DNA from: an uncultured Bacteroidales bacterium
GTDB taxonomy: Bacteria; Bacteroidota; Bacteroidia; Bacteroidales; Muribaculaceae
Length of the DNA stretch: 64,000 nt
NCBI GenBank assembly: GCA_902777835.1
Contig: CACYVC010000009.1
Span: 1-64,000 of the forward strand
Direction of reading: 5' to 3'
Shown here piece after piece: positions 5,244-64,000 of this stretch (position 1 is its first letter; each line of letters opens with the position of its first letter). The notes below the pieces were generated by a model, which did not search any database, had not been told where the DNA came from, and worked only from the letters and a program-made list of their open reading frames with translations. A program made the translations under genes and the position numbers.

Positions 5244-7148
5244 ATGTTAGGAGCAGTATTTGGAGATATTGTAGGGAGTGCCTACGAATGGCACAATGTG
5301 AAGACAAAGGTTTTCCCATTGCAGAGGCAGGAAACCCGTTACACCGACGACAGTGTGATGACACTCGCTGTAGCAAAGTGGCTTCTTGAAGACCCATCGC
5401 ACAGCGAGAGCCATCTAATAAAGTGCATGCAACTGCTGGGTCGAGAACATTTTAATGCAGGCTATGGCGGAAGATTCAGAGCGTGGCTGATGACTGATAA
5501 TCCACAGCCCTATAATAGTTGGGGCAACGGCTCGGCTATGCGAGTAAGTCCTGTTGCCTTGTGTGCCACTTCCTTAGAGGAGGCATTGGAGCTAGCGAGA
5601 ATTACAGCCAATGTAACCCATAACCATCCTGAGGGAGTAAAAGGGGCTATGGCTATTGCCGAATGTGTTTATCGCTGCCTTGTGGCACCCGATGTTGACA
5701 CTGCTAAACGAGACATTCGCGAAGTGATTCCTCAAAAGTATGGCTACAATCTCTCCAGGACACTTGATGAGATTCGCCCAAATTACCAGTTTTATGTAAG
5801 CTGTCAAGACAGTGTGCCCGAAGCCATCATTGCCTTCCTTGAGAGTGACTCTTTGGAGGACTGTGCACGTAATGCAATTTCAATAGGTGGCGACTCCGAC
5901 ACAATTGCTGCAATAGCATGTTCTATCTATGCAGTGAAAAACAATCTTGAAGATGAGACACTTGCAAAAGAATTTGAGCAATATCTTTCACCAGACCTCC
6001 TTCGCATAATGGAAGACTTTGAGAAAATGGTAGGAAGTATGAAAGACAGGAGTAACGCACATTTACTTGATAAAAAGAACGTAAAAAACACATTACAAGA
6101 CCGAATCAGAGGTTCGCTTATTGGTGGAGCCATTGGCGACGCTTTGGGTTACCCCGTAGAGTTTATTTACCCTTTTGAAGAGATACAGGCAAAATATGGT
6201 GAGCGCGGCATCACACGGCTCGACACAATGCAATTTTGGCTCGGCAGTGATAAACAAAACGCTAAGGCAGTGGTCTCGGACGACACTCAGATGACGCTTT
6301 TCACTGCCAATGGTCTGCTTAATGCCAAGCAACAGGGCATTGACATGAAGCACGGCATTTGTCGTGCCTACGTAGAGTGGTATGTCACCCAAACTGGAAA
6401 GAAATTGAGCAGTTTCAACGACTGCTGGATTAGCAGTGTGCCTGAGTTAAATGCGAACCGAGCGCCAGGAACTACTTGTATGTCAGCATTAAATACTATT
6501 TATTATGGTGGTGAACCTCATAATAACAGCAAAGGCTGTGGTGGCGTAATGCGCATTGCGCCAATTCCTCTATATGCTTCTGTAGAGTCGCGCATGGATG
6601 TAACCGAAGCCGCCAGACTTGCCGGTGAAGCCGCCGAGATAACACATCAGCACCCACTCGGTTATATTCCTGCCGCATTGATGGCCCACGTTATCTATCG
6701 CCTTGCACTGGAGGAGCAACCCACCAAATCAAACCTTAAACAATACATAGTTGAAGGTATGGAGGCTTTGGAGAAACTTTATCCCGAGAGTCCCATCGAA
6801 GTTCAAGAGATGCAGACTTTGGTTAAACAAGCTATTAACTGCTCAGAGAATCAACTGCCCGATCTTGAGAATATCATCTCTCTTGGCGAAGGATGGGTTG
6901 GAGATGAGGCATTGGCTATTGCCCTATATTGCTGTCTGCGTCACTTCGACAGCTTTGAGGAAGCCCTTATAGCATCAGTAAACCATGGTGGCGACAGTGA
7001 CAGCACAGGTGCTGTGACAGGAAACATCCTTGGAGTTGCTGTAGGATATGATGCAATTCCACAGTTCTTCAAAGATGACTTAGAGATGCATGATTTAATA
7101 CTACACATGGCCGATGACTTGTATCGTGGCGAAGTGACGTTAATGTAA
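5244..7148 (+). CDS. Tandem-domain ADP-ribosylglycohydrolase (DraG/ARH-like)
   Basis: A 634-residue protein made of two complete ADP-ribosyl-hydrolase domains, joined near residue 285. Each half has the family's two metal-binding signatures: TDDSVMT (34-40) and GGDSDT (about 215) in the N half, SDDTQMT (about 343) and GGDSDST (about 582) in the C half. The family removes ADP-ribose from arginine or other acceptors on proteins or nucleic acids, using two Mg or Mn ions. Both halves keep the acidic residues, so both may be active. The usual length is about 300 residues, so this is a duplication or fusion. There is no adjacent ADP-ribosyltransferase; the substrate is unknown. Confidence 0.85.
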   Translation: MLGAVFGDIVGSAYEWHNVKTKVFPLQRQETRYTDDSVMTLAVAKWLLEDPSHSESHLIKCMQLLGREHFNAGYGGRFRAWLMTDNPQPYNSWGNGSAMRVSPVALCATSLEEALELARITANVTHNHPEGVKGAMAIAECVYRCLVAPDVDTAKRDIREVIPQKYGYNLSRTLDEIRPNYQFYVSCQDSVPEAIIAFLESDSLEDCARNAISIGGDSDTIAAIACSIYAVKNNLEDETLAKEFEQYLSPDLLRIMEDFEKMVGSMKDRSNAHLLDKKNVKNTLQDRIRGSLIGGAIGDALGYPVEFIYPFEEIQAKYGERGITRLDTMQFWLGSDKQNAKAVVSDDTQMTLFTANGLLNAKQQGIDMKHGICRAYVEWYVTQTGKKLSSFNDCWISSVPELNANRAPGTTCMSALNTIYYGGEPHNNSKGCGGVMRIAPIPLYASVESRMDVTEAARLAGEAAEITHQHPLGYIPAALMAHVIYRLALEEQPTKSNLKQYIVEGMEALEKLYPESPIEVQEMQTLVKQAINCSENQLPDLENIISLGEGWVGDEALAIALYCCLRHFDSFEEALIASVNHGGDSDSTGAVTGNILGVAVGYDAIPQFFKDDLEMHDLILHMADDLYRGEVTLM

Positions 7149-25729: not shown

Positions 25730-25841
25730 CTTTTGATTGGCGGAGAGGACAAGAATATTTTTTTGTTTTCTCGCCCTCATAGTTGGTCTATTCGTCAACC
25801 ATTTACATTCAGGATTCGCTGCATTATCGTCTATAACCCGT

Positions 25842-53597: not shown

Positions 53598-56500
53598 ATG
53601 AGTAAACTAAGCAACCTATTGCAACAAGCCGCCGTGATTCGCGACGCTACAGAGGAGCACGAGAACACCGCGGTGAGAGTCGGCACTATGTTTGTCGACT
53701 TCATCCAGAGTTGCCTCGATGTGCTGCCGCCCGAGATAGTGGATGCCACAGGCATCTCGACGAGCACAAGCGAGACCAACTTTGTGGTGCGCTATCGCAC
53801 GGTTGACGACACGGGGGCGAGCGTGAGCAAGAGCATCACCATCCCTGCCGCGTCGAGTGCCAACGCCGGTCTGCTGTCAACATCGCTGCTGGCACAGATT
53901 AACCAGGTCATCACGTCGGTGACTGCCGCCGTGAGCGAGCTGGCCACCGTTAGAGGCATCGCCGAGGGCGCACAGACCACAGCCACCCGAGCCGAAGGCA
54001 AAGCCGACGCTGCGCAGAGTGCGGCTGACGATGCCGATGTTGCGGCGCAAGCAGCGCAGAGCGCGGCCGACGCGGCACAATCAGCAGCCGAGGCAGTAGC
54101 CGCCACCGTGGAAGCGATGAAGAAGTACGGCTACAAGTTCATGGGTGTGGCCACGCCGGCCACGGACCCCGGCACACCGAGCGAGAACGTGTTCTACCTC
54201 GCCACCACCGAGGGCTACTACACCCACTTCCCGACCAACGCGGCAACCGAGGAAGGACCGCTCTACTTCACTATTGGAGCCGACGAGGTCGCCATCTTGC
54301 GCTACACCAAGCCGACCGACGACACGCCAATCGTCACCAACTGGAGCAAGGTGACGCTGAACCTTGCCAAAGGTACGGCGATAACCGAAATAAGAACCGC
54401 CATTGAGACCCTGCAGAGCAACATCAGCGACCTTGAGGACGGCCTCGCACCTCGCCTGTTCTTCAACGGCAACGTGCTCACTGGCACCGAGGGCGATAAC
54501 CTCTCGCTCGCACAGTTCGTGGCATTGACCGCCGGCACCGTTTTCGCCTTTGCCCGCAAGAAAGGTGTTGTGGTGGCTCTCTCTACCGCTGACGGCTTGA
54601 AGAACTACCAGTGGAAAGGCACGACATGGAACAACACCGACGACTGGCGCAACTTCGGCGGCTCGGCTGCCGTGGGCAACTGCTACAACGTCACCAACGA
54701 GGCGAGCGACCTGCTGCCTGCCGGCACGGGTTACTTCACCCTCACCACCGCCATCGCGGCCGTGAAGACCAAAGGTGTGCAGGGTGTGGGTATGCAGATA
54801 ACCTTTGCCGTTGGAGAGTCCACATGGAAGACTTACCAGTATGTGGGTGCCGACGTGACCGACACCAATTTTGACCTCGAGACCAACTGGGTTGACATGG
54901 CGGGTATCACCGCAGGCAACGAGGCAGTAATCAACATTCTCGACCTTTGCGGCCCTTGCACGGTTGCCCCTTACTACAACCTGCAATATGCCATCGCCGC
55001 GCTTGTTGACAAGCAGAATGCGACAGGTATCACCTACGCAAAGAGTGGCCTTGTCATCACTTACCCGATAGGCGAGAACCTTTGGGAGGCCAAGCAGTTC
55101 AACGGCATCGTCGAGAACTTCGGCGAGACCGGCCTGTGGAAAGACTTCGGCGGTGGCGGCAGTGCCGATGTAGAGACCAGCGACACCCCTGTCAGTGGTG
55201 GCGAGGACGCGTTCAGCACAGGCGGCGCTTATACCCACCTCGCAAAGGGTGTGGAGATGCTGGAGGATAGCGAGGCACAGCAGCGTGAGGATTACGTTGA
55301 GGGCTACAACTACTTCTATCTCATCAACGAGAACGGAGACCGCATCGGCAACGTGTGGCGCATACCTAAAGGCGGTGGCGGCTCATCGACGACCAAAGTG
55401 TTCAGCGTGAACTTCCAACAATCGCCGTTCTATGCCGCCGTTGGTGGTAATTTCACCTTGCGTGCGTCAATCCGCAGCGCGACCGAGGAAGGTGGCGTGA
55501 CAACTACCGACAGCATCGAGTCAATCCAAATCGTGGACCGCGACACTGCCCAGGTGTTGTTCAGCGACACCACGACACACGCATCGAGCGAGAGCCGCAC
55601 CGACTACTCGTTCACCTTTGACCTGTCCTCGTTCTTCACCTCGGCAAGCACCCGTCGCCTGCAACTGATTGCTGTGGACGGTGCCGGAGACAGGGCATCA
55701 CGCACCATCAACGTGGTGGCCGTGGACGTGACTTGCCAGTGCGTGCAGGTGCTCAACTACACCAATGCGAGTGTGGTGTTCACTACCGACACCGTCAAGT
55801 CGTTGCAGATGTATCAGTTCCCGAACAACCAGGGCACGATTACCGCCGTCGTTGACATCTTCGTTAACGGCGAGTGGGTGAACATCGGCACGGCACAGGT
55901 CACAGACAGTTATGCCCACAACATCACCGTCAACCCGACCGCCTTGGGCTTGACGCACGGCGCATACCCCATCCGTATGTACGGCACCGACAACGCCAGC
56001 AGCGTGCGAGGCAACACCGTCTATTCGACCATCATGGTTGTTGACACGGCGAGTTCGCTGCCTATCGTCGCCATGCGCTACAACGATGCCAACAATGGCG
56101 AGGTGCGGCTCTACGATACCGTGGCTCTTGAAGTCACCGCCTACACGCCCGACGCACAGGAGAGCGAGGTGGTAGTTACCGAGAACGGGGCCACCATCGC
56201 CACGCTGAATGTGAACCGCAGCGCCGTGGAGACCGTGAACCGCCAAATTAGCGGCGTGGAGCAAGGCACGACACTTGCCTACCAAGCCACGAGCGGAGCC
56301 AGCGCGAGCGGCACAATCAGCCTCACCGTCAACGGCAGCGTGATTGATGCGGCACTGACCACCGGCGCGATATGTGCATTCGACTTCGCCAACCGCACCA
56401 ACAGCGAGGCAGGAAACCACGAAATCGTGGACGGCAACTACGAGATAGCCGTGAAAGGCTCTAACTGGTCGTCCAACGGCTTCAAGAACTATCTCGGCGG

Positions 56501-59500
56501 CAACGCCCTTGCCGTGAAAGAGAACGTGACGGCAGAGTTGAACCTCGCTCCGTTCGCCACTGTAGATGTCGCCAGCACAGGTTTCGCCCTGCTGTTCCAG
56601 TTTGCCTCGAACAACATCGCCGACAACGATGCCCACCTCATGGAGTGCTACGACGAGAACAACGGAGCGGGCTTCTACATCACCGGTCAGGCTATCGGCA
56701 TCAAGTGCGGCAGCAAGGTCGAGGAGAGAACCTACCCCAACGGCGAGCGCATCACCGTTGGCATCCTCGTTGAGCCATCGAGCAAGTATGTGGAGTTCAA
56801 AGGCACGCGTTACTCGCTGATCAAGTTGTTCATCAACGGCGAGGAGAGTGCCTGTGTCGAATACACCTCCAATAACGACCTATTGCAGGACAGTACCATC
56901 AAGTTCAGCGGCATCGAGGGTGACTTCTACCTCTACTACCTGATTGCGTGGATGCAGTACATCGCCTGGATGCTGCAGTTCTTCAACTACCTCGTCAAGT
57001 TGACCGACACCTCGGCGATGGTGACGGAGAATACCTTCGAGGACGTGTGGAGCGGAAACACCTCCAACGGCCCCACGGCTGCAAAGCTCACCGCAAAGGG
57101 CATGCCGTACTTGATTGAGGCACCGTTCAACGGCAGTGACATCACCGCCCTGGACAACACCACCTCGACGAGCCGCAACAACTATATCACGCTGACCTAC
57201 CGCGACCCGAGCCGTCCGTGGCGCAACTTCGTCGCTACCGATGTGCGCCGGCGCAACCAGGGTACGACCTCGGCGAAGCGTCCCATCAAGAACGCCCGTT
57301 ACTACCTCGCCAAGAAGAACGGCTCGACCTACGACAAGGCGACCAAGACCGGCGGCACGGTTGTCACGCCCGAGCTGTCGAGAACCGAGTTCATTGCCGC
57401 CTACGGCACCGAGCACATCGCGCTATACGACGAGGCTGTGGCACTGTTCGCCAAGAATAAGGTGCGTGTGAGAGAGGACAGCATTCCTGTTGACCTCATC
57501 ACCGTCAAGGTGGACTACTCGGACAGCACCAACGCCAACGACTGCGGCGCGTGCAACATGATGAACACCGTCTATCGCCGTCTGGGAGCGCAGTACATGA
57601 CCCCTGCGCAACGCTACTACGATGGCACCTACGATAACGGCGATGTCCATTTGACGGGGTTGCAGTTGAACCACTCGACGGCCAACCACCCGATTGCCAT
57701 GTACCGCGACTTCAGCGGCACCGGGACGAGCCTCAAGTTCTACGCCAAAGGCAACTGGAAGGAGGACAAGAACGAGCAGATGGCTCTCGGCTTCAAGGAC
57801 ACGCCGGGCTACAACAAGGGCTGCCTCAACTACGGCGACTTCGTTGAGTTCTTCGGCACGTCGAGCGAGACGCTGGCGCAAGCCGTGACCCGCTTCCTCT
57901 CTGCAAGCGTCACGAAGGACACGAGTAAGGTTTACCTTATCTCGCAGTACTGCGGCTCGTCCTACAAGTTCTACCGCTATCGCAATGGCGCGTGGACCGA
58001 CACCACTGGCACAATGCGGCAGGTGAACGGCGCATGGGTCATCACTGGCGACGTACTGAACCCAGTGGACGGCTTCGAGTTGCTTGCCTACCAGGGAATG
58101 TGCTGGTGGCAGGGCGTTGCGAGCGTGAGCGACTTCATGGCTCCCAGCACCAACATCTCCTCTTGGGTGCAGAAACTCATCGATAAGGAGGGCAGCGGCG
58201 TGTCCGGCACCACGTTCCCCGCATGGACCAACTACTTCGAGTGCATGATTGACGATGACCAGCTGCAGGCCGACCTCGCCATGGGGCGCAAGGCTCCCTA
58301 CTGGCTCTACCGCCTGCTCAAGTTCTGCAACGACTGCGACTACTCGCAGGGTGCGGACCTCAGCGGCGACTGGCACGACAATCTCTACAAGTACGTCAAG
58401 CCCTATGCGCTGTATGTTTACAACGCGTTCACCGACTATCTCGCCGCCGTTGACCAGCAGGCCAAGAACATGCAGCCCATGTTCTTCCTCGACGAGGGAG
58501 GCTCGGTAGAGGGAGGTGTGTACAAGTACAACGGCGTGGCCACCGAGGATTGTGCCGTGCGCATGTACCCCAACAAGGTGTACGATGCCGACACCCTGCT
58601 CGGCAAGGACAACGCCGGTGGCGCGACCGTCGATCCCGAAGTTGACCCCAACAAGCCGAGCGACCCGACAACTGGCTACAACAACCCCTACGCCGGTTGG
58701 GGCTCCGTGTTGTGGAACAACATCTACCGCCAGCCAACCGTCAAGGTCGATGCGAACAACGAGACCGACATGAACACCATCGTGGCGGCCATGCGCAACC
58801 TGCAAGCCACCGTTGACGGTGTTTCTCTGTCGCCGTTCTCGCCCGAGGGCTGCAAGCACTTCTTCCTCGACAACATCTGCAAGCGTTGGCAGAAGACTGT
58901 CAGCTCGTATGACGGCGAGAGCAAGTACATCGACAGCACCGAGAACATCGACACAACGGTAGAGGACAACACCACCTACTTCTACGCGCTGCACGGCTTG
59001 CGCCTCACCTCGCTGCCGTCGTTCATCGACCGCCGTTTCCGTGTCCGTGACGGCTTCTACCGCACCGGATTGTTCTTCAGCGGTGTATGGTCGGCGCGTA
59101 TCAACGGCAACGTGAGCACGTCAGGCATCACTATCAAGGCCGCCAAGACGGGCTACTTCGGTGTCGGTAGCGACAACTCTGGCAACCTGCGTGAGAGCGT
59201 GTATCTTGAGGCCGGTGAGAGCCACCGCTTCACGCTGTTCGACCACACCGAGGGCTCATTGCTCTACATCTACCAGGCGAACCGCATCAGGGAGATAGAC
59301 CTCAGCGAGATTTCCATTTCGCAGAGCGAGATTGTGTCGTTCGGTGCTTTCACCCTCGCAGAGAAGATAATCCTCGGTGGAGCTGACCACGTCAACATGG
59401 GCATCGGCTCTTACGCCCCCATGACCGAACCGCCGCTGGGCTCGCTGCCGTTCCTCAAGGAGTTGAACATCGTCAACACCCTTGCCACGGCCATCGACGC

Positions 59501-61700
59501 GTCGCAATGTCCTCGTCTGGAGACTTTGGACGCGACCGGTTCACCGCTTGCGAGCCTCGCCCTTGCCGAGACTTCGCCTGTGAGTGTGCTGACCCTGCCA
59601 GCGACCATCTCTCGCCTGACGTTGGTCAACCTGCCCAACCTGTCGTATGAGAGCGGTTGCCTCACTTTCGAGGGAATGAGCGCACTCACGCAGATACGCA
59701 TCGACGGCTGTCCGCTGCTTGATGGGGCGAAACTGCTCAACGATGCAGTGACCGCAGGCGCATCGCTGTCGCGCATCCGTCTTGCGGGCATTGACGTGAA
59801 CGGAAAGAGCGACATCCTCGTTGCCCTGCGCGACATGGGTGTGCGTGGACTTGACGCAAACGGCGATGCTATTGCTGAGAGCAACCAATGTTCCGGCTTG
59901 ACTGGTGTGTGGACGTGCAGCGATGTGATAGAGGCCACCTTGCTCGCCAGCCTGCAAGCCTACTTCCCGTTGCTGACCATCTACAACGCCCAGTACACGG
60001 TCGTTCAGTTGGATGACAGCAAGACCGCGCCTGCCGAGGACAGCGTCATCAACCTTGACAACGGCACTTATGCCAACGACGGCAAGATGGGCTACGTCGC
60101 CAGCGGCCATATAACCAAGATTAAGGCAATGATGCACGTCTATAAGTCTGTGTACGACGAGAGTGCACAGAAGATGAAGTGCTACCAACTTGACGATGAC
60201 GACATCGAACTGCTTGCCAACGGCGAGTCCTTTGACAGGACCGATGCAGGTGGCGAGGGCTACGATGTGATGCTCGGCCTGCCTCATTTTTGGTACAAGG
60301 GAGTGAACGACGCGCTCAACAGGAAGAAATACCTCGTACTGTCGAGCGAGACCGGCACACCCCGAAGTACTGCATCCGCCATCAGCCGTGTGTCGCTTGC
60401 TGCAACCATTGACGGGGCGGCCAACCCTGCTTTGGTCGCCGAGTACGTGGCCGTGTATATGTCGGCGTTCAATGTCGGTGACGTGTTCTCTTCCGCCAAC
60501 CTGGGCCAGTCGTCCACCACGAAAGTCTATCAGATGAGCGTGGTGGGCATGAAGCAGGTGCGCTGGCCGACCATGAGCAGTTCGACCACCGGCATCCTGT
60601 TCCTCGACAAGGACGGCAAGGTCATCAGCAAGTTCGCGCCGTCGATCGCCGACAGCATGACCGACTTCCTCGCCGGTGACTACGTGTTCATGGACGTGCC
60701 TGCCAACGCCGTGAGGTTCGTGTTCACCGTGCCCATCACGTTCGGCAACACCACCACACTCGACGAGAGCGAGGCTATCGCCGTCAGCAGTACGGCGATT
60801 GAGGCTATCGAGCCCGACTGGGTGGAGCATGAGTTTGAACTCATCGGCACCTACAAGGCTTACAAAGACGCGCTGCAACGTCTGCGCAGTGTGAGCGGTG
60901 TGGCACCCACCCGAGGCTCGGGAACGAGCACCACATCAAGTTACTGGCAATACGACGCCAACGGCAATGTCGTTTCGGCCTTGCCCGACAGCAGCCGCAC
61001 GTTCAACATGACGTACCTCGACTTCCGCAACCTCTCGCGCTGCCGTGGAGCGGGATACCAGCTTGTGGACTACGAGATGCACAAGTGCGTTGACCTGCTG
61101 TTCCTCGCCTGCTTCGGCACCCGCAACAGCCAGTCGCTGTTCGGCAACGGACAGGGCAACGGCACGCAGACCGGCGGCAGCGACATCTACACGACCAACA
61201 TCGAGCGTGACGCGTCGCCGCTGCGTGAGGCCTCGCGGCCCCGTTTCTTCGGCTTGGAGGACTGGTGGGGCAACTGCTGGGAGTTTATGGACTTCGTGGC
61301 CATCAATGTCAAGAGTTACGCCGAGTACTACAAGAACAAGTGCGAGGTTCCTGCCGGCAGCGATACGGACAGGGTTTGGCACATCCGCATGCCCGACGGC
61401 ACCGAGCGCGCCGTCAAGGGCGACCCGAACAGCAACTCAGGCGAGATTGTCCGCTTGCGCTGGGGGCGCTTCTGCGATGTGGTGCCGAGCAAGTTGCACA
61501 CCAACAGCAGCTACAACCAGTACTACTGCGACATGATGGAAATGCAGAACTCTACTGGTCGCGTCGTGGCGCGGTCCGGGCACTACAACAATGCGTACTG
61601 CGGCTTCGTCTTCGTGAGCGCGAACAGCGCTTCCTCGAGCTCGAACGGCAGCGGCGGCGCGCGGCTTGCCTTCAGGGGCGCAATCGAAATCGTCGAGTAG
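53598..61700 (+). CDS. Giant receptor-binding fibre, DGR target protein
   Basis: 2700 residues. In order: tail-anchor-like N terminus (1-115), alanine-rich coiled coil (about 118-175), a repeated beta segment (about 180-540), Ig-like domains (about 600-918), a LamG/concanavalin-like domain (about 925-1135), a long central part, a leucine-rich-repeat-like stretch (about 1914-2044), and a C-terminal C-type-lectin/formylglycine-enzyme-like domain (about 2450-2700, with GLEDWWGNCWEF near 2551). The last 47 residues hold the variable repeat (VR, 2654-2690) and a conserved tail AFRGAIEIVE. It should bind the host surface, and its tip is diversified by the downstream reverse transcriptase. Confidence 0.92.
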   Translation: MSKLSNLLQQAAVIRDATEEHENTAVRVGTMFVDFIQSCLDVLPPEIVDATGISTSTSETNFVVRYRTVDDTGASVSKSITIPAASSANAGLLSTSLLAQINQVITSVTAAVSELATVRGIAEGAQTTATRAEGKADAAQSAADDADVAAQAAQSAADAAQSAAEAVAATVEAMKKYGYKFMGVATPATDPGTPSENVFYLATTEGYYTHFPTNAATEEGPLYFTIGADEVAILRYTKPTDDTPIVTNWSKVTLNLAKGTAITEIRTAIETLQSNISDLEDGLAPRLFFNGNVLTGTEGDNLSLAQFVALTAGTVFAFARKKGVVVALSTADGLKNYQWKGTTWNNTDDWRNFGGSAAVGNCYNVTNEASDLLPAGTGYFTLTTAIAAVKTKGVQGVGMQITFAVGESTWKTYQYVGADVTDTNFDLETNWVDMAGITAGNEAVINILDLCGPCTVAPYYNLQYAIAALVDKQNATGITYAKSGLVITYPIGENLWEAKQFNGIVENFGETGLWKDFGGGGSADVETSDTPVSGGEDAFSTGGAYTHLAKGVEMLEDSEAQQREDYVEGYNYFYLINENGDRIGNVWRIPKGGGGSSTTKVFSVNFQQSPFYAAVGGNFTLRASIRSATEEGGVTTTDSIESIQIVDRDTAQVLFSDTTTHASSESRTDYSFTFDLSSFFTSASTRRLQLIAVDGAGDRASRTINVVAVDVTCQCVQVLNYTNASVVFTTDTVKSLQMYQFPNNQGTITAVVDIFVNGEWVNIGTAQVTDSYAHNITVNPTALGLTHGAYPIRMYGTDNASSVRGNTVYSTIMVVDTASSLPIVAMRYNDANNGEVRLYDTVALEVTAYTPDAQESEVVVTENGATIATLNVNRSAVETVNRQISGVEQGTTLAYQATSGASASGTISLTVNGSVIDAALTTGAICAFDFANRTNSEAGNHEIVDGNYEIAVKGSNWSSNGFKNYLGGNALAVKENVTAELNLAPFATVDVASTGFALLFQFASNNIADNDAHLMECYDENNGAGFYITGQAIGIKCGSKVEERTYPNGERITVGILVEPSSKYVEFKGTRYSLIKLFINGEESACVEYTSNNDLLQDSTIKFSGIEGDFYLYYLIAWMQYIAWMLQFFNYLVKLTDTSAMVTENTFEDVWSGNTSNGPTAAKLTAKGMPYLIEAPFNGSDITALDNTTSTSRNNYITLTYRDPSRPWRNFVATDVRRRNQGTTSAKRPIKNARYYLAKKNGSTYDKATKTGGTVVTPELSRTEFIAAYGTEHIALYDEAVALFAKNKVRVREDSIPVDLITVKVDYSDSTNANDCGACNMMNTVYRRLGAQYMTPAQRYYDGTYDNGDVHLTGLQLNHSTANHPIAMYRDFSGTGTSLKFYAKGNWKEDKNEQMALGFKDTPGYNKGCLNYGDFVEFFGTSSETLAQAVTRFLSASVTKDTSKVYLISQYCGSSYKFYRYRNGAWTDTTGTMRQVNGAWVITGDVLNPVDGFELLAYQGMCWWQGVASVSDFMAPSTNISSWVQKLIDKEGSGVSGTTFPAWTNYFECMIDDDQLQADLAMGRKAPYWLYRLLKFCNDCDYSQGADLSGDWHDNLYKYVKPYALYVYNAFTDYLAAVDQQAKNMQPMFFLDEGGSVEGGVYKYNGVATEDCAVRMYPNKVYDADTLLGKDNAGGATVDPEVDPNKPSDPTTGYNNPYAGWGSVLWNNIYRQPTVKVDANNETDMNTIVAAMRNLQATVDGVSLSPFSPEGCKHFFLDNICKRWQKTVSSYDGESKYIDSTENIDTTVEDNTTYFYALHGLRLTSLPSFIDRRFRVRDGFYRTGLFFSGVWSARINGNVSTSGITIKAAKTGYFGVGSDNSGNLRESVYLEAGESHRFTLFDHTEGSLLYIYQANRIREIDLSEISISQSEIVSFGAFTLAEKIILGGADHVNMGIGSYAPMTEPPLGSLPFLKELNIVNTLATAIDASQCPRLETLDATGSPLASLALAETSPVSVLTLPATISRLTLVNLPNLSYESGCLTFEGMSALTQIRIDGCPLLDGAKLLNDAVTAGASLSRIRLAGIDVNGKSDILVALRDMGVRGLDANGDAIAESNQCSGLTGVWTCSDVIEATLLASLQAYFPLLTIYNAQYTVVQLDDSKTAPAEDSVINLDNGTYANDGKMGYVASGHITKIKAMMHVYKSVYDESAQKMKCYQLDDDDIELLANGESFDRTDAGGEGYDVMLGLPHFWYKGVNDALNRKKYLVLSSETGTPRSTASAISRVSLAATIDGAANPALVAEYVAVYMSAFNVGDVFSSANLGQSSTTKVYQMSVVGMKQVRWPTMSSSTTGILFLDKDGKVISKFAPSIADSMTDFLAGDYVFMDVPANAVRFVFTVPITFGNTTTLDESEAIAVSSTAIEAIEPDWVEHEFELIGTYKAYKDALQRLRSVSGVAPTRGSGTSTTSSYWQYDANGNVVSALPDSSRTFNMTYLDFRNLSRCRGAGYQLVDYEMHKCVDLLFLACFGTRNSQSLFGNGQGNGTQTGGSDIYTTNIERDASPLREASRPRFFGLEDWWGNCWEFMDFVAINVKSYAEYYKNKCEVPAGSDTDRVWHIRMPDGTERAVKGDPNSNSGEIVRLRWGRFCDVVPSKLHTNSSYNQYYCDMMEMQNSTGRVVARSGHYNNAYCGFVFVSANSASSSSNGSGGARLAFRGAIEIVE
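61556..61667 (+). repeat. DGR variable repeat (VR)
   Basis: 112 bp at the 3' end of the fibre gene, aligned without gaps to the template repeat at 61882-61993. There are 12 mismatches, all at adenines of the template (8 A-to-G, 3 A-to-T, 1 A-to-C), changing 11 codons: H2662, Y2663, Y2667, C2668, F2672, S2674, S2677, S2681, G2684, S2685 and G2686. Its 3' end holds an 11-bp G/C-only run, CGGCGCGCGGC (61655-61665), like the IMH at which mutagenic homing starts. Confidence 0.97.
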
Positions 61701-61736
61701 CGAGCGTGAGCGTCGGCGAAAAAATCGGCAAAGCGT

Positions 61737-61771
61737 AGAGTGAGAGTCGCCGTAAGGCGGCTGCTCACTCT
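61737..61771. other. Hairpin downstream of VR
   Basis: AGAGTGAG (61737-61744) pairs with CTCACTCT (61764-61771), then AGTCGCC (61745-61751) with GGCGGCT (61756-61762) around a GTAA loop; one unpaired G. In the Bordetella phage DGR a hairpin just after VR promotes homing; this one is 69 bp from VR and may play that part. Confidence 0.6.
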
Positions 61772-61777
61772 CCCTTT

Positions 61778-61800
61778 AGCCGCGAAGCGGCTTCGATTTT
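61778..61800 (+). terminator. Terminator of the fibre gene
   Basis: AGCCGC (61778-61783) with GCGGCT (61787-61792), loop GAA, then TCGATTTTG. Moderate T-run. Confidence 0.5.
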
Positions 61801-61843
61801 GAAAATTTTTTGTTCCAGGTGGCACAAATCGCAAAAAATGCCG

Positions 61844-61851
61844 TACCTTTG
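61844..61851 (+). promoter_or_regulatory. -7 box for the template-repeat RNA
   Basis: TACCTTTG, 31 bases before the template repeat. No TTG at the usual distance; the nearest is too far (61810). RNA would start near 61857 and run through TR into the reverse transcriptase gene. Confidence 0.45.
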
Positions 61852-61881
61852 TCGCCGAAATCAAGGCGGACGACCTCTTTG

Positions 61882-61993
61882 TGGTCGCGTCGTGGCGCGG
61901 TCCGGGAACAACAACAATGCGAACTACGGCTTCGTCTACGTGAACGCGAACAACGCTTCCTCGAACTCGAACAGCAACAACGGCGCGCGGCTT
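61882..61993 (+). repeat. DGR template repeat (TR)
   Basis: 112 bp, non-coding, the unmutated template of the VR. It has 27 adenines, of which 12 differ in VR. Read in the VR frame it gives a run rich in Asn (AAC codons), the codon that gives most substitutions under A-mutagenesis (including Tyr, Ser, His, Asp, Gly and others). Partial similarity goes on for about 10 bases beyond the end (aatttcaagg versus gccttcaggg), with 4 differences, one of them not at A. Confidence 0.97.
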
Positions 61994-62212
61994 AATTTCA
62001 AGGTACACCGCCCATGTTTCAGCGTGGGCAGGTCGCAAATCGTTCCTCTACGTCGGCGACGTGTCGCCATGACGCAAGGGCGAGGGGTCTGAGCCTCGGC
62101 AATCCTTTGTGGAGGAAGTTAATTTCCTCCACGAGAAGACCGAAACAAAAGAAACGTGGCAGAATTGCCGGTAGCGGAAGCGACAGTGACGAGCCACACC
62201 ACCCTGAAGGCA
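61994..62212 (+). other. Structured spacer between TR and reverse transcriptase
   Basis: No gene and no avd here. Stems: GCCCATG/CGTGGGC near 62010-62030, ACGTC/GACGT near 62050, CGAGG/CCTCG near 62080, and a perfect 9-bp GTGGAGGAA (62109-62117) with TTCCTCCAC (62124-62132). In studied DGRs, RNA next to TR folds and binds the RT complex to prime cDNA. Confidence 0.55.
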
Positions 62213-63511
62213 ATGAAACGATATGGGCACTTGATACCGTTAATCATCGAGCAGGGAAACATGAGCACCAGCTTTGATGATGTGCTCGGCGACTTGAAGA
62301 ACGAGAGCCGCAAGGCCACTCTGCGGGCAAGGAAACAGGACATCATCGACCGATTAGCAGCCGCCATCCGTGACGGCTCTTTTCGTATCACCACCGTCCA
62401 TGAGATGGAAGTCACCGACGGCCCGAAGCGGCGTGTCGTGCAGGCACCGCCCGTCATCCAGCGCATAGGCTGCCACGCCATCATGAACATCGTTGACCAA
62501 GTGTGCTACAAGTCAATGATACCCACCAGCGCGGCGAGCATCAAGGGGCGAGGTATGCACTACCTGCACAAGATTGTGAGCGACGACCTGCGGCAGCACC
62601 CCGGCGAGACCACCTACTTCTACAAGTGCGACATCAAGAAGTTCTACGAGAGCATTGACCAAGACATAATGTATGAGTGTGTCTGTCGTTATATTAAAGA
62701 CAAGACATTGCTGCCGATACTCGAGAACTTTGTGCGCGTCATGCCGTCAGGTTTGGCGATAGGTCTGCGCAGTTCGCAGTGCTTCGGCAACATTCTCCTT
62801 GACAGATTGGACCACTTCATGAAAGAAGTGGTGAAAGTGCGTTATTACTACCGCTACTGCGACGACATAGTGATGCTGCACCACGACAAGAAGACTCTTT
62901 GGCTGTGGCGTGACATCCTCGTTGACCAACTCGCGTTGCTCGGCTTGTCAATCAAAGACAACGAGGTGGTGCGTCCTGTCGCCGACGGGCTGGACTTTCT
63001 CGGCTTCATTCACTACGGCACCCATTCGCTGCTGCGCAAGCGAGTGAAGAAGCGGTTCGCCCGGCACATGGCGAAAGTCAAGTCACGCAAGCGGCGTGTC
63101 GCCCTCATGGGCTCGTTCAAGGGCATGGCGGTGCACGGAGACTGCAATCATTTATATTACACAATAACAGGACAGCACATGAAAAAGTTCAGCGAGATGG
63201 GTGTGACCTACACCCCTGCCGACGGGAAGAAACGTTTCCCCGGCAAAATGATGCGCCTTGGCGCTATAGTAAACAAAACCATTGAAGTCCACGACTACGA
63301 GAGCGGGATTAAGACGAGCCAGGGTGAAGACCGCTATGTTGTCAGTTTCTTCGACCCTGCAACAAAAGAGTGGGGCAAGTTCTTCACAGCGTCCGAGGAG
63401 ATGAAAAACATTCTCGATCAGATCAGCGACATCGAGGACGGCTTTCCTTTTGAGACAACAATCATCAGCGAGGTGTTCGACGGAAACAAAGTCAAGTACA
63501 AGTTCAGTTAA
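62213..63511 (+). CDS. DGR reverse transcriptase
   Basis: 432 residues from ATG 62213 (MKRYGHLIPLI, the usual N terminus of DGR RTs); a GTG at 62156 gives 19 more. Retron/DGR-type fingers-palm: CDIKKFYESID with Asp140 (motif A), GLRSSQCFGNILLDRL with Gln189 (the SQ that marks DGR RTs, where other RTs have QG), YCDD at 215-218 (catalytic motif, M replaced by C), then GLDFLGFI. It reverse-transcribes TR RNA with errors at adenines. The C-terminal 160 residues beyond the thumb are longer than usual. Confidence 0.93.
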   Translation: MKRYGHLIPLIIEQGNMSTSFDDVLGDLKNESRKATLRARKQDIIDRLAAAIRDGSFRITTVHEMEVTDGPKRRVVQAPPVIQRIGCHAIMNIVDQVCYKSMIPTSAASIKGRGMHYLHKIVSDDLRQHPGETTYFYKCDIKKFYESIDQDIMYECVCRYIKDKTLLPILENFVRVMPSGLAIGLRSSQCFGNILLDRLDHFMKEVVKVRYYYRYCDDIVMLHHDKKTLWLWRDILVDQLALLGLSIKDNEVVRPVADGLDFLGFIHYGTHSLLRKRVKKRFARHMAKVKSRKRRVALMGSFKGMAVHGDCNHLYYTITGQHMKKFSEMGVTYTPADGKKRFPGKMMRLGAIVNKTIEVHDYESGIKTSQGEDRYVVSFFDPATKEWGKFFTASEEMKNILDQISDIEDGFPFETTIISEVFDGNKVKYKFS

Positions 63512-63530
63512 CTAAGTTCTTCAATAAAGG

Positions 63531-63565
63531 CAGCGCACTCTATGAATGGAGTGCGCTGTCTTTTT
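63531..63565 (+). terminator. Terminator after the reverse transcriptase
   Basis: CAGCGCACTC (63531-63540) with GAGTGCGCTG (63549-63558), perfect 10 bp, then TCTTTTTA. The T-run is also part of late promoter 5. Confidence 0.92.
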
Positions 63566-63609: not shown

Positions 63610-64000
63610 ATGGACAAAATCTACGGAGCCGTTGCGCGTTTTGACGGCATTCAGCAAATAGGACGCACCACATTTGAAGTGTTCTATGGTTTTGGTGAAG
63701 ACGATAATGGTAAGTTCCAGTATCGACAAACACTCCCTTATAAGCCTCCTTTTGAATTCGTTAAGGACATGATTTTAACACAGGTGAATGCTAACACCCA
63801 GGAGAAAATCACGTCTGGCTTCATGTGGAAAGATAAACTCGTGTGGCTTAGTGAAGCTAACCAGTTGAACTATGCCCGTGACTTCGCTGTAGCTTACTAC
63901 TGCGAAAAGAATGGTGAGCAGTATTCTTTACCTACATACAAATTTGGTACAGACGAGACCCCCATTTTCTACACTTTTGAAAGCTTTGAGGAATTCAAGC
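63610..64000 (+). CDS. Phage protein, cut by the window end
   Basis: At least 130 residues, open to the edge (MDKIYGAVARFDGIQQIGRT). No domain recognised. A late promoter directly precedes it, so it may be a fibre-assembly or virion protein expressed with the fibre. Confidence 0.7.
   Translation, partial: MDKIYGAVARFDGIQQIGRTTFEVFYGFGEDDNGKFQYRQTLPYKPPFEFVKDMILTQVNANTQEKITSGFMWKDKLVWLSEANQLNYARDFAVAYYCEKNGEQYSLPTYKFGTDETPIFYTFESFEEFK

Follow-up and report, generated by a model that had tools for sequence, protein, structure and literature searches.

The Rfam RT-3 RNA as the spacer between template repeat and reverse transcriptase in a clade of diversity-generating retroelements

In this study, we analyzed a stretch of 64,000 nucleotides (the window) at the start of contig C9 (CACYVC010000009.1, forward strand) from the genome of an uncultured Bacteroidales bacterium of the Muribaculaceae (GCA_902777835.1), near the right end of which lies a diversity-generating retroelement (DGR). 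Its components are all read on the forward strand. The target gene (53598..61700) is an open reading frame for a tail fibre of 2700 residues, of which residues 428-2700 match PHROG 14959 and residues 2416-2692 match PHROG 5302, a "tail protein" family. The 3' end of this gene holds the variable repeat (VR; 61556..61667), which is followed after a gap of 214 bp by the template repeat (TR; 61882..61993); each repeat is 112 bp long. The spacer beyond TR is occupied by an RNA of the Rfam family RT-3 (RF03068; 62038..62197, with a covarying core at 62038-62147), after which come the gene for a DGR-type reverse transcriptase (RT) of 432 residues (62213..63511) and a gene for a PHROG 19239 protein, the usual neighbour of the RT in this clade, which starts at 63610 and runs past the window's last position, 64000, to contig position 64095 (L003 2610-3095).

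The two repeats align over 112 bp without a gap and differ at 12 positions, all 12 of them TR adenines (27 of the 112 bases are A); eight are A-to-G changes, three A-to-T and one A-to-C. The chance that 12 random sites would all fall on A is 3.9e-9 (hypergeometric), and base-blind scoring (+1/-2) returned the same block with the same 12 of 12 differences at A. Eleven fibre codons are altered (2662, 2663, 2667, 2668, 2672, 2674, 2677, 2681, 2684, 2685 and 2686, the last of these twice). An earlier note, made by a model from the bases alone, had described these repeats, and its coordinates, lengths, gap, adenine-only differences and codon count proved exact to the base when the repeats were aligned by program. 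Beyond the block, the repeat continues to 61677 on the VR side and to 62003 on the TR side, with four further differences, one of them T to C. VR closes the target gene with a 3' end that resembles an initiation of mutagenic homing (IMH) sequence (..CGGCTTGCCTTC; 61655..61677, forward strand) and that carries a fixed difference from the IMH*-like end of TR (61994..62003, forward strand): in the window and its relatives, GCCTTC stands at the VR end in 67 of 68 cases and at the TR end in 0 of 68. The search for further VRs that the note had proposed, with TR as the query against the 2.89-Mb genome, found TR itself and the single VR in the fibre gene.

The comparison with relatives is based on a clade of 92 loci, the window included, whose RTs are at least 40% identical and which came from RT searches of IMG/VR, GTDB genomes and phages; one of these searches contributed the best 80 of its 311 matches. 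Duplicates of one record, RT fragments (L014, L022 and L133) and LoVEphage (L026), whose RT is in pieces, stand outside the 92. L019, an RT reference with stops, was left out of the protein alignments, and L082, with a 430-bp repeat, was left out of the VR/TR bias, hairpin, box and close-pair counts. Near-identical loci were kept in the counts of TR/VR pairs and of VR-side hairpins; identical rows or regions were counted once in the covariation, GRNA-hairpin and box counts. A TR/VR pair with its TR no more than 700 nt upstream of the RT is present at 68 of the 92 loci. Since the score first used to extend the repeats favours A mismatches, the count was repeated with symmetric scoring, which placed 792 of the 805 mismatches in 67 pairs at TR adenines; A makes up 1723 of the 7375 TR bases in these pairs and stands on the VR side in only two mismatches. 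The note had held that differences at other bases, if as common in relatives as those at adenines, would speak against adenine-specific mutagenesis, and this count therefore sustains its reading, as do the RT motifs, fold and profile described below. In LoVEphage, a DGR-type RT region is matched in three pieces, annotated as several small genes, and an upstream TR/VR pair has 13 of its 14 mismatches at A.

The element also appears to have been active, as the note had proposed, because VR differs among close relatives in which TR is constant. The comparison took in 20 pairs of loci whose RT genes share at least 95% DNA identity, some of the pairs not independent of one another. VR differs in 12 pairs, and the differences add up to 157 at adenines and 6 at other sites. 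In six pairs the RT DNA is 100% identical and the TRs are identical too. In three of these VR differs: L070/L069 has changes at 13 of the 27 adenines and at none of the 75 other sites, L079/L080 at 15 of 25 and none of 79, and L016/L017 at 11 of 24 and 1 of 77; in the other three (L057/L055, L096/L094 and L115/L114) the VRs are identical. Between the window and L005, whose RT genes are 96.5% identical in DNA, the VR differences fall on 14 of the 23 adenines and on none of the 57 other sites, and the TR stretch is the same over the 80 nt compared. The DGR is likely to be in natural use among these close relatives. In the hankyphage, a member of the same clade, VR diversification at TR adenines has been measured by sequencing in culture, according to the accessible part of that report (PMC12135933); for the present element, the sign of putative mutagenic retrohoming is the VR differences between relatives. 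Two side observations concern related copies: loci L055 to L058 are near-identical DGRs on separate IMG/VR contigs that share one VR, unlike several other close pairs, and the metagenome-assembled genome (MAG) CAMHQD carries two DGR copies, on contigs 9 and 116 (L125 and L127), with RTs 94% and 89% identical to the RT of the window.

The RT-n RNA motifs were reportedly introduced in a paper of 2017. One of them, RT-3, supplies the structured RNA that a DGR carries between TR and RT: the Rfam model scores the window at 46.4 bits against a gathering cut-off of 40.5. This model was run on the complete records of 87 of the 92 clade members, of which 86 matched at an E value of 0.001 or better (39 of 40 and 47 of 47 in two sets) and 84 of the 87 stood above the cut-off, as compared with 0 of 14 controls. 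The sole miss, L083, was recovered by our own covariance model, R1, which was built from 18 sequences (alignment A6, 18 loci), holds 21 pairs and describes only the 5' core. R1 was given 86 of the clade loci, 18 of them its training loci (L009, L017, L055, L056, L058 and L069 were left out), and detected all 86 and none of 9 other DGR loci; the window, one of the training sequences, scored 70.3 bits. A scan of six phage loci found RT-3 in the clade phages p00 (146.6 bits), BT-TP2 (125.2 bits) and BS-TP4 (74.5 bits) and did not find it in LoVEphage or cr10_1, while LMMB gave RT-17 below threshold. The RNA begins a median of 22 nt after the TR end (4 to 135 nt, n=61), and a median of 59 nt separates the end of its core from the RT start (-16 to 177 nt, n=86), with an overlap of the chosen start codon in 4 of 86 loci.

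The association also holds when the search starts from the RNA. The core motif, run through IMG/VR, gave 13 contigs, and all 13 carry an RT of the clade on the same strand, with the match starting 45 to 171 nt downstream; eight of these records were already in the set and five were new, and in five the stretch ends inside the RT. Among 101 genomes of the genus, nine have the RT, and the RNA was found in eight of these nine and in no other; the remaining genome holds only a piece of the RT, at the end of a contig. Among 296 genomes of the phylum, RF03068 was found only in that of the window. RT-3 is the spacer between TR and RT, and the searches from either side pair it with this RT clade.

The structure of the RNA is supported by covariation. 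Over 71 distinct sequences, 91.2% of the cells pair and 18 of the 21 pairs are changed on both sides, with 299 both-side-changed cells as compared with 92 in shuffles; the covariation score is 0.535 against 0.174 when shuffled and at most 0.085 when slid, in an alignment that was fitted to the model. In the MAFFT alignment A6, from which the structure was drawn by hand, the corresponding values are 0.453, 0.190 and at most 0.166. The supported helices are P1 (62040-62045 with the GGGCGA side), a hairpin with the loop CGUG, a UCGGC/GCCGR helix and an inner stem; the short P2 is weaker, at 79.9% paired. RNAalifold on a first alignment, A4, gave 10 pairs only, and the sequences were realigned as A6. 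A single-sequence fold of the window's spacer was uninformative (z -1.63). In Rfam 15, RT-3 was refolded with CaCoFold, with eight additional covarying pairs, and DGRs are not mentioned in the accessible parts of the texts that describe it (PMC11701678 and PMC7657543). A link between RT-3 and DGRs was likewise absent from the accessible parts, in some cases abstracts, of the literature covered (PMC6199706, PMC12386605, PMC12135933, PMC12875486, PMC3240598, PMC7657543, PMC8144416 and PMC11701678), a set that does not include the founding RT-n paper, in which an earlier mention is possible.

The RT matches PHROG 1423 (reverse transcriptase) at 2e-102. Its start is more likely to be the ATG at 62213 than the GTG at 62156, given the alignment with relatives and the extent of the structured RNA. 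The note had recognized an RT of the DGR type after TR, and its motifs IGLRSSQ, which we take to be the SQ motif of the DGR clade, and YRYCDD are present. An AlphaFold model (mean pLDDT 77.7) has the BPP-1 DGR RT, 8ub7, as its best structural match (E 4.8e-18), and a 17-sequence RT profile also places 8ub7 first (2.8e-57), covering only profile positions 2-327 of 439; the enzyme therefore belongs with the RTs of DGRs. Residues ~340-432 form a C-terminal domain, for which C-termini from 53 of the 92 loci were aligned (A5). Modelled alone, with a pLDDT of 82.4, the domain has three strands, a helix and two strands, and we tentatively read it as an oligonucleotide/oligosaccharide-binding (OB)-like fold.

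Two conserved signals flank the repeats. The first is the box TACCTTTG (61844..61851, forward strand), of the form TAnnTTTG, which we take to be the Bacteroidales -7 box consensus. Of 56 distinct loci, 38 have such a box between -70 and +10 of TR, whereas shuffled sequences give 1.66 and the region upstream of VR gives 1; the box is a candidate promoter for the TR RNA. The second is a hairpin on the VR side, GAGTGAG..GTAA..CTCACTC (61737..61771, forward strand), within a region whose predicted DNA fold has a z of -3.67 (61701-61830). Its motif, GAGKGAG..CTCMCTC, is found 39 to 83 nt after VR in 46 of 67 loci; the hairpin that DGRs carry downstream of VR is represented here by a longer form, farther from VR than the published GRNA type and of putative function. 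Ten loci have their TR more than 500 nt away (0.8-0.9 kb); in eight of them, which are related to one another, the hairpin lies beside VR, and the other two are without the motif. The fact that the hairpin stays by VR where TR is distant argues for a target-side element, and it is a candidate for a counterpart of the BPP-1 hairpin/cruciform; the alternative is that it ends the fibre transcript. A strict GRNA tetraloop hairpin with a perfect 6-bp GC-rich stem was found after VR in 2 of 57 distinct regions (0.1 in shuffles), and with DNA folding the counts were 7 of 57 for GRNA (0.7 shuffled) and 19 of 57 for GNNA (1.4 shuffled); the longer conserved hairpin was adopted instead. It is followed by a second terminator-like stem (61778..61792).

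The element is another DGR of a known kind, very probably one of the hankyphage type that belongs to a temperate phage of Bacteroidales; what is new is the RT-3 assignment, the C-terminal domain in an element in which Avd is not detected, the TAnnTTTG box and the VR-side hairpin. The note had named neither the RNA in the spacer nor the box or the hairpin. Hankyphage p00 of Bacteroides/Phocaeicola (BK010646; PMC6199706 and PMC12135933) has the same order of fibre with VR, TR, RT-3 RNA, RT and PHROG 19239. Its RT is 48% identical to that of the window over all 432 residues, the C-terminal domain included, and its VR likewise ends in GCCTTC. It differs in its host and in being described as transposable in the accessible part of PMC12135933, whereas the window's phage has a phage integrase beside a tRNA-Ser gene; in addition, the GAGKGAG..CTCMCTC hairpin was not found at the p00 locus. 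Bacteroides phage BS-TP4 (PQ571277) is also alike, with an RT 51% identical, RT-3 and the same VR-side hairpin, but it has RelE-like and XRE-like genes between VR and TR (L023 3956-4616), and the hairpin remains with VR. Like the window, BPP-1 has VR at the 3' end of a receptor-binding gene, a TR, a structured spacer, an RT of the same fold and a hairpin after VR. Unlike the window, it carries an Avd gene in the interval from VR to TR, its RT has 328 residues and lacks the C-terminal domain, and its spacer is of another Rfam family (RF03022). The distance between hairpin and VR is 4 to 34 bp in the published set, as far as the accessible part of PMC3240598 describes it, as compared with 39 to 83 here.

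We propose that transcription would start at the promoter box just before TR, yielding an RNA that carries TR and the folded RT-3 spacer. The RT would bind this spacer, and its OB-like C-terminal domain could take over some of what Avd contributes in BPP-1. Priming would occur near the junction of TR and spacer, and TR would be copied with errors opposite adenines; the cDNA would then replace VR from the 5' end that the repeats share up to the IMH, aided by the hairpin after VR, and the fibre tip would change. A C-type-lectin fold of that tip, as assumed in the note, is suggested by precedent.

Further members of the RT-n series were found at other DGRs. A scan of 16 additional DGR-type phage loci gave matches above the cut-off at five, weaker RT-17, RT-14 or RT-4 matches at seven and none at four. 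The five are BPP-1 (RF03022, "Phage_DGR"), FP_Epona (RT-4), BalMu-1 (RT-14), LBR48 (RT-18) and cr6_1 (RT-17); with the BPP-1 spacer as RF03022, Rfam already holds one DGR RNA. TR lies directly upstream of the RNA and RT directly downstream in FP_Epona, BPP-1, BalMu-1 and cr6_1; the stretch covered for LBR48 yielded no TR. RT-4, RT-14 and RT-17 thus occupy the same spacer as RT-3, although these three and RT-18 are separate sequence families, and R1, which describes only the 5' core, detected none of the other RT-n families. Visual inspection of the alignments shows that the consensus of RT-3, RT-14, RT-17, RT-18 and Phage_DGR includes, close to the start of the RT, a hairpin whose internal loop is GUA..GAA; RT-4 has no such hairpin. 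This offers a lead toward a common architecture. We consider the chances evenly balanced for a broader reading. In it, RT-3 would serve as the scaffold of the template RNA in a clade of DGRs that lack Avd and belong to phages of Bacteroidales; the OB-fold tail of the RT, perhaps with the PHROG 19239 protein, would replace Avd in holding the spacer RNA and cDNA; and RT-4, RT-14, RT-17 and probably RT-18 would be the same organ elsewhere, most of them sharing the GUA/GAA-loop hairpin by the RT start and all descending from one ancestral architecture. Matches to RT-4, RT-14, RT-17 and RT-18, many below the cut-off, were seen in TR-RT spacers of crAss-like and other phages (L028, L033-L036, L039-L042, L044 and L045), suggesting that these models could be widened.

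Several observations weigh against the main account, a DGR of the hankyphage type that works as proposed. No TR/VR pair was found within 700 nt upstream of the RT at 24 of the 92 loci; nine of these have less than 700 nt of upstream sequence, two have a remote VR and one (L011) looks collapsed, which leaves 12 loci without an explanation. VR is identical in 8 of the 20 close pairs. The counts of the RNA that start from the RT are linked by ancestry, close relatives having been kept in. Residues ~274-340 of the RT model have a pLDDT below 50, and no solved structure reaches an E value of 0.001 with the C-terminal domain: at the top of the list stands P12, the single-strand-binding protein of PRD1 (E 0.04, TM score 0.43), with OB domains of Teb1, human SSB and RPA lower and non-OB chains among the top ten. 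In the fibre tip, neither Pfam nor a sequence search against the PDB gave a C-type-lectin domain, or any PDB relative. Finally, Avd profiles (PF22296 and PF05635) matched nothing on contig C9, in the 21 clade virus records or in the three clade phages, and BPP-1 requires Avd, according to the accessible part of PMC12875486. The note had called the DGR complete; repeats, RT and target bear this out, while an Avd gene was not detected nearby and the lectin fold of the tip found no support in those searches.

With respect to the loci that have no adjacent pair, the two remote VRs are on the opposite strand, about 25 kb off in G372 (L116), where 15 of 15 mismatches are at A, and about 26 kb off in G363 (L106), where 8 of 10 are; they suggest that a TR of the RT-3 clade can probably act at a distance. 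In L011 (1-1806), the interval from VR to TR looks collapsed to one copy relative to L008, by an assembly effect or by recombination between VR and TR.

Avd is present in most, but not all, DGRs. PF22296 was positive in four of nine DGR phages from outside the clade (BPP-1, phiARM81mr, VHML and BalMu-1). The profiles are not fully sensitive, since the annotated Avd of FP_Brigit was missed; in the whole genomes G000, G299, G300 and G306, matches lie on contigs other than that of the DGR. It is possible, if on balance doubtful, that the PHROG 19239 protein, or an Avd that has diverged, fills the role of Avd and that the OB-like tail of the RT is incidental. The PHROG 19239 protein tracks the clade, being present in 28 of 28 clade records as compared with 0 of 9 other DGR phages, and it adjoins the RT in 27 of the 28 (coordinates judged by eye; G300 is the exception), even in G363 with its distant VR. 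A small open reading frame near the hankyphage RT has, moreover, been proposed as Avd on the basis of size and pI (PMC6199706, accessible part). However, the PHROG 19239 protein matches neither PF22296 nor PF05635, a terminator-like hairpin separates its gene from the RT in the window, and phage records label it DUF4376, which presumably points to a resemblance on the tail side.

A second alternative, which we regard as unlikely, is that RT-3 acts in cis as a regulatory leader on the mRNA for the RT, controlling translation or transcription, and is no part of the template ribonucleoprotein, with the DGR otherwise as described. The distance from the core to the RT start would indeed place the RNA in the 5' leader of the RT; however, RT-3 also follows TR closely, and the same slot is filled in BPP-1 (L030), where TR lies at 1079-1212, the Phage_DGR RNA at 1217-1349 and brt at 1357, and where the folded spacer brings in bRT-Avd and serves to prime the cDNA (PMC12875486, accessible part). 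An origin of the RT in a retron or defence system that came to lie near the fibre by chance is very improbable: PADLOC RT profiles do score (best RT_UG17, 6.6e-23), as they would for any related RT, but the nearest solved RT by both fold and profile is that of the BPP-1 DGR, and 68 of the clade loci have TR/VR pairs. Least probable of all is that the repeats are a decayed duplication with an A bias due to chance or ordinary mutation, which in our view is refuted by VR differences between close relatives with a constant TR; against it stand, in addition, the hypergeometric chance and the concentration of mismatches at adenines across the clade.

As a DGR, the element extends a known clade by one phage. 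Should the RNA assignment prove correct, an RNA family that has no stated function in the accessible literature would gain a job, and covariance models could find DGR RNAs where the detection of TR and VR fails, as with remote VRs and fragments. A DGR that is truly free of Avd would provide a simpler system for adenine-specific reverse transcription and targeted protein diversification.

The DGR lies inside a prophage of ~43.2 kb with primase, head protease, tape measure and phage-integrase genes. The 18-bp direct repeat that bounds it and resembles an attachment (att) site, TTGGCGGAGAGGACAAGA, has its left copy at 25737..25754 (forward strand) and its right copy at contig C9 68914-68931 (L003 7914-7931), in tRNA-Ser(gct) and beside the integrase gene; it was the only repeat of at least 13 bp found between 20-28 kb and contig 67.0-69.3 kb. 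The terminator-like hairpin after the RT (63526..63563, forward strand) has 17 pairs, a loop of 4 and a T-rich tail; the window has five terminator-like sites, as compared with 3.1 by shuffling. The relatives within the genus are MAGs that carry the labels Muribaculaceae, Porphyromonadaceae or Prevotellaceae; going by their titles, two or more of them come from the rumen. In the host part of the contig, positions 5244-7148 encode an ADP-ribosylglycohydrolase (Pfam, 4.5e-104).

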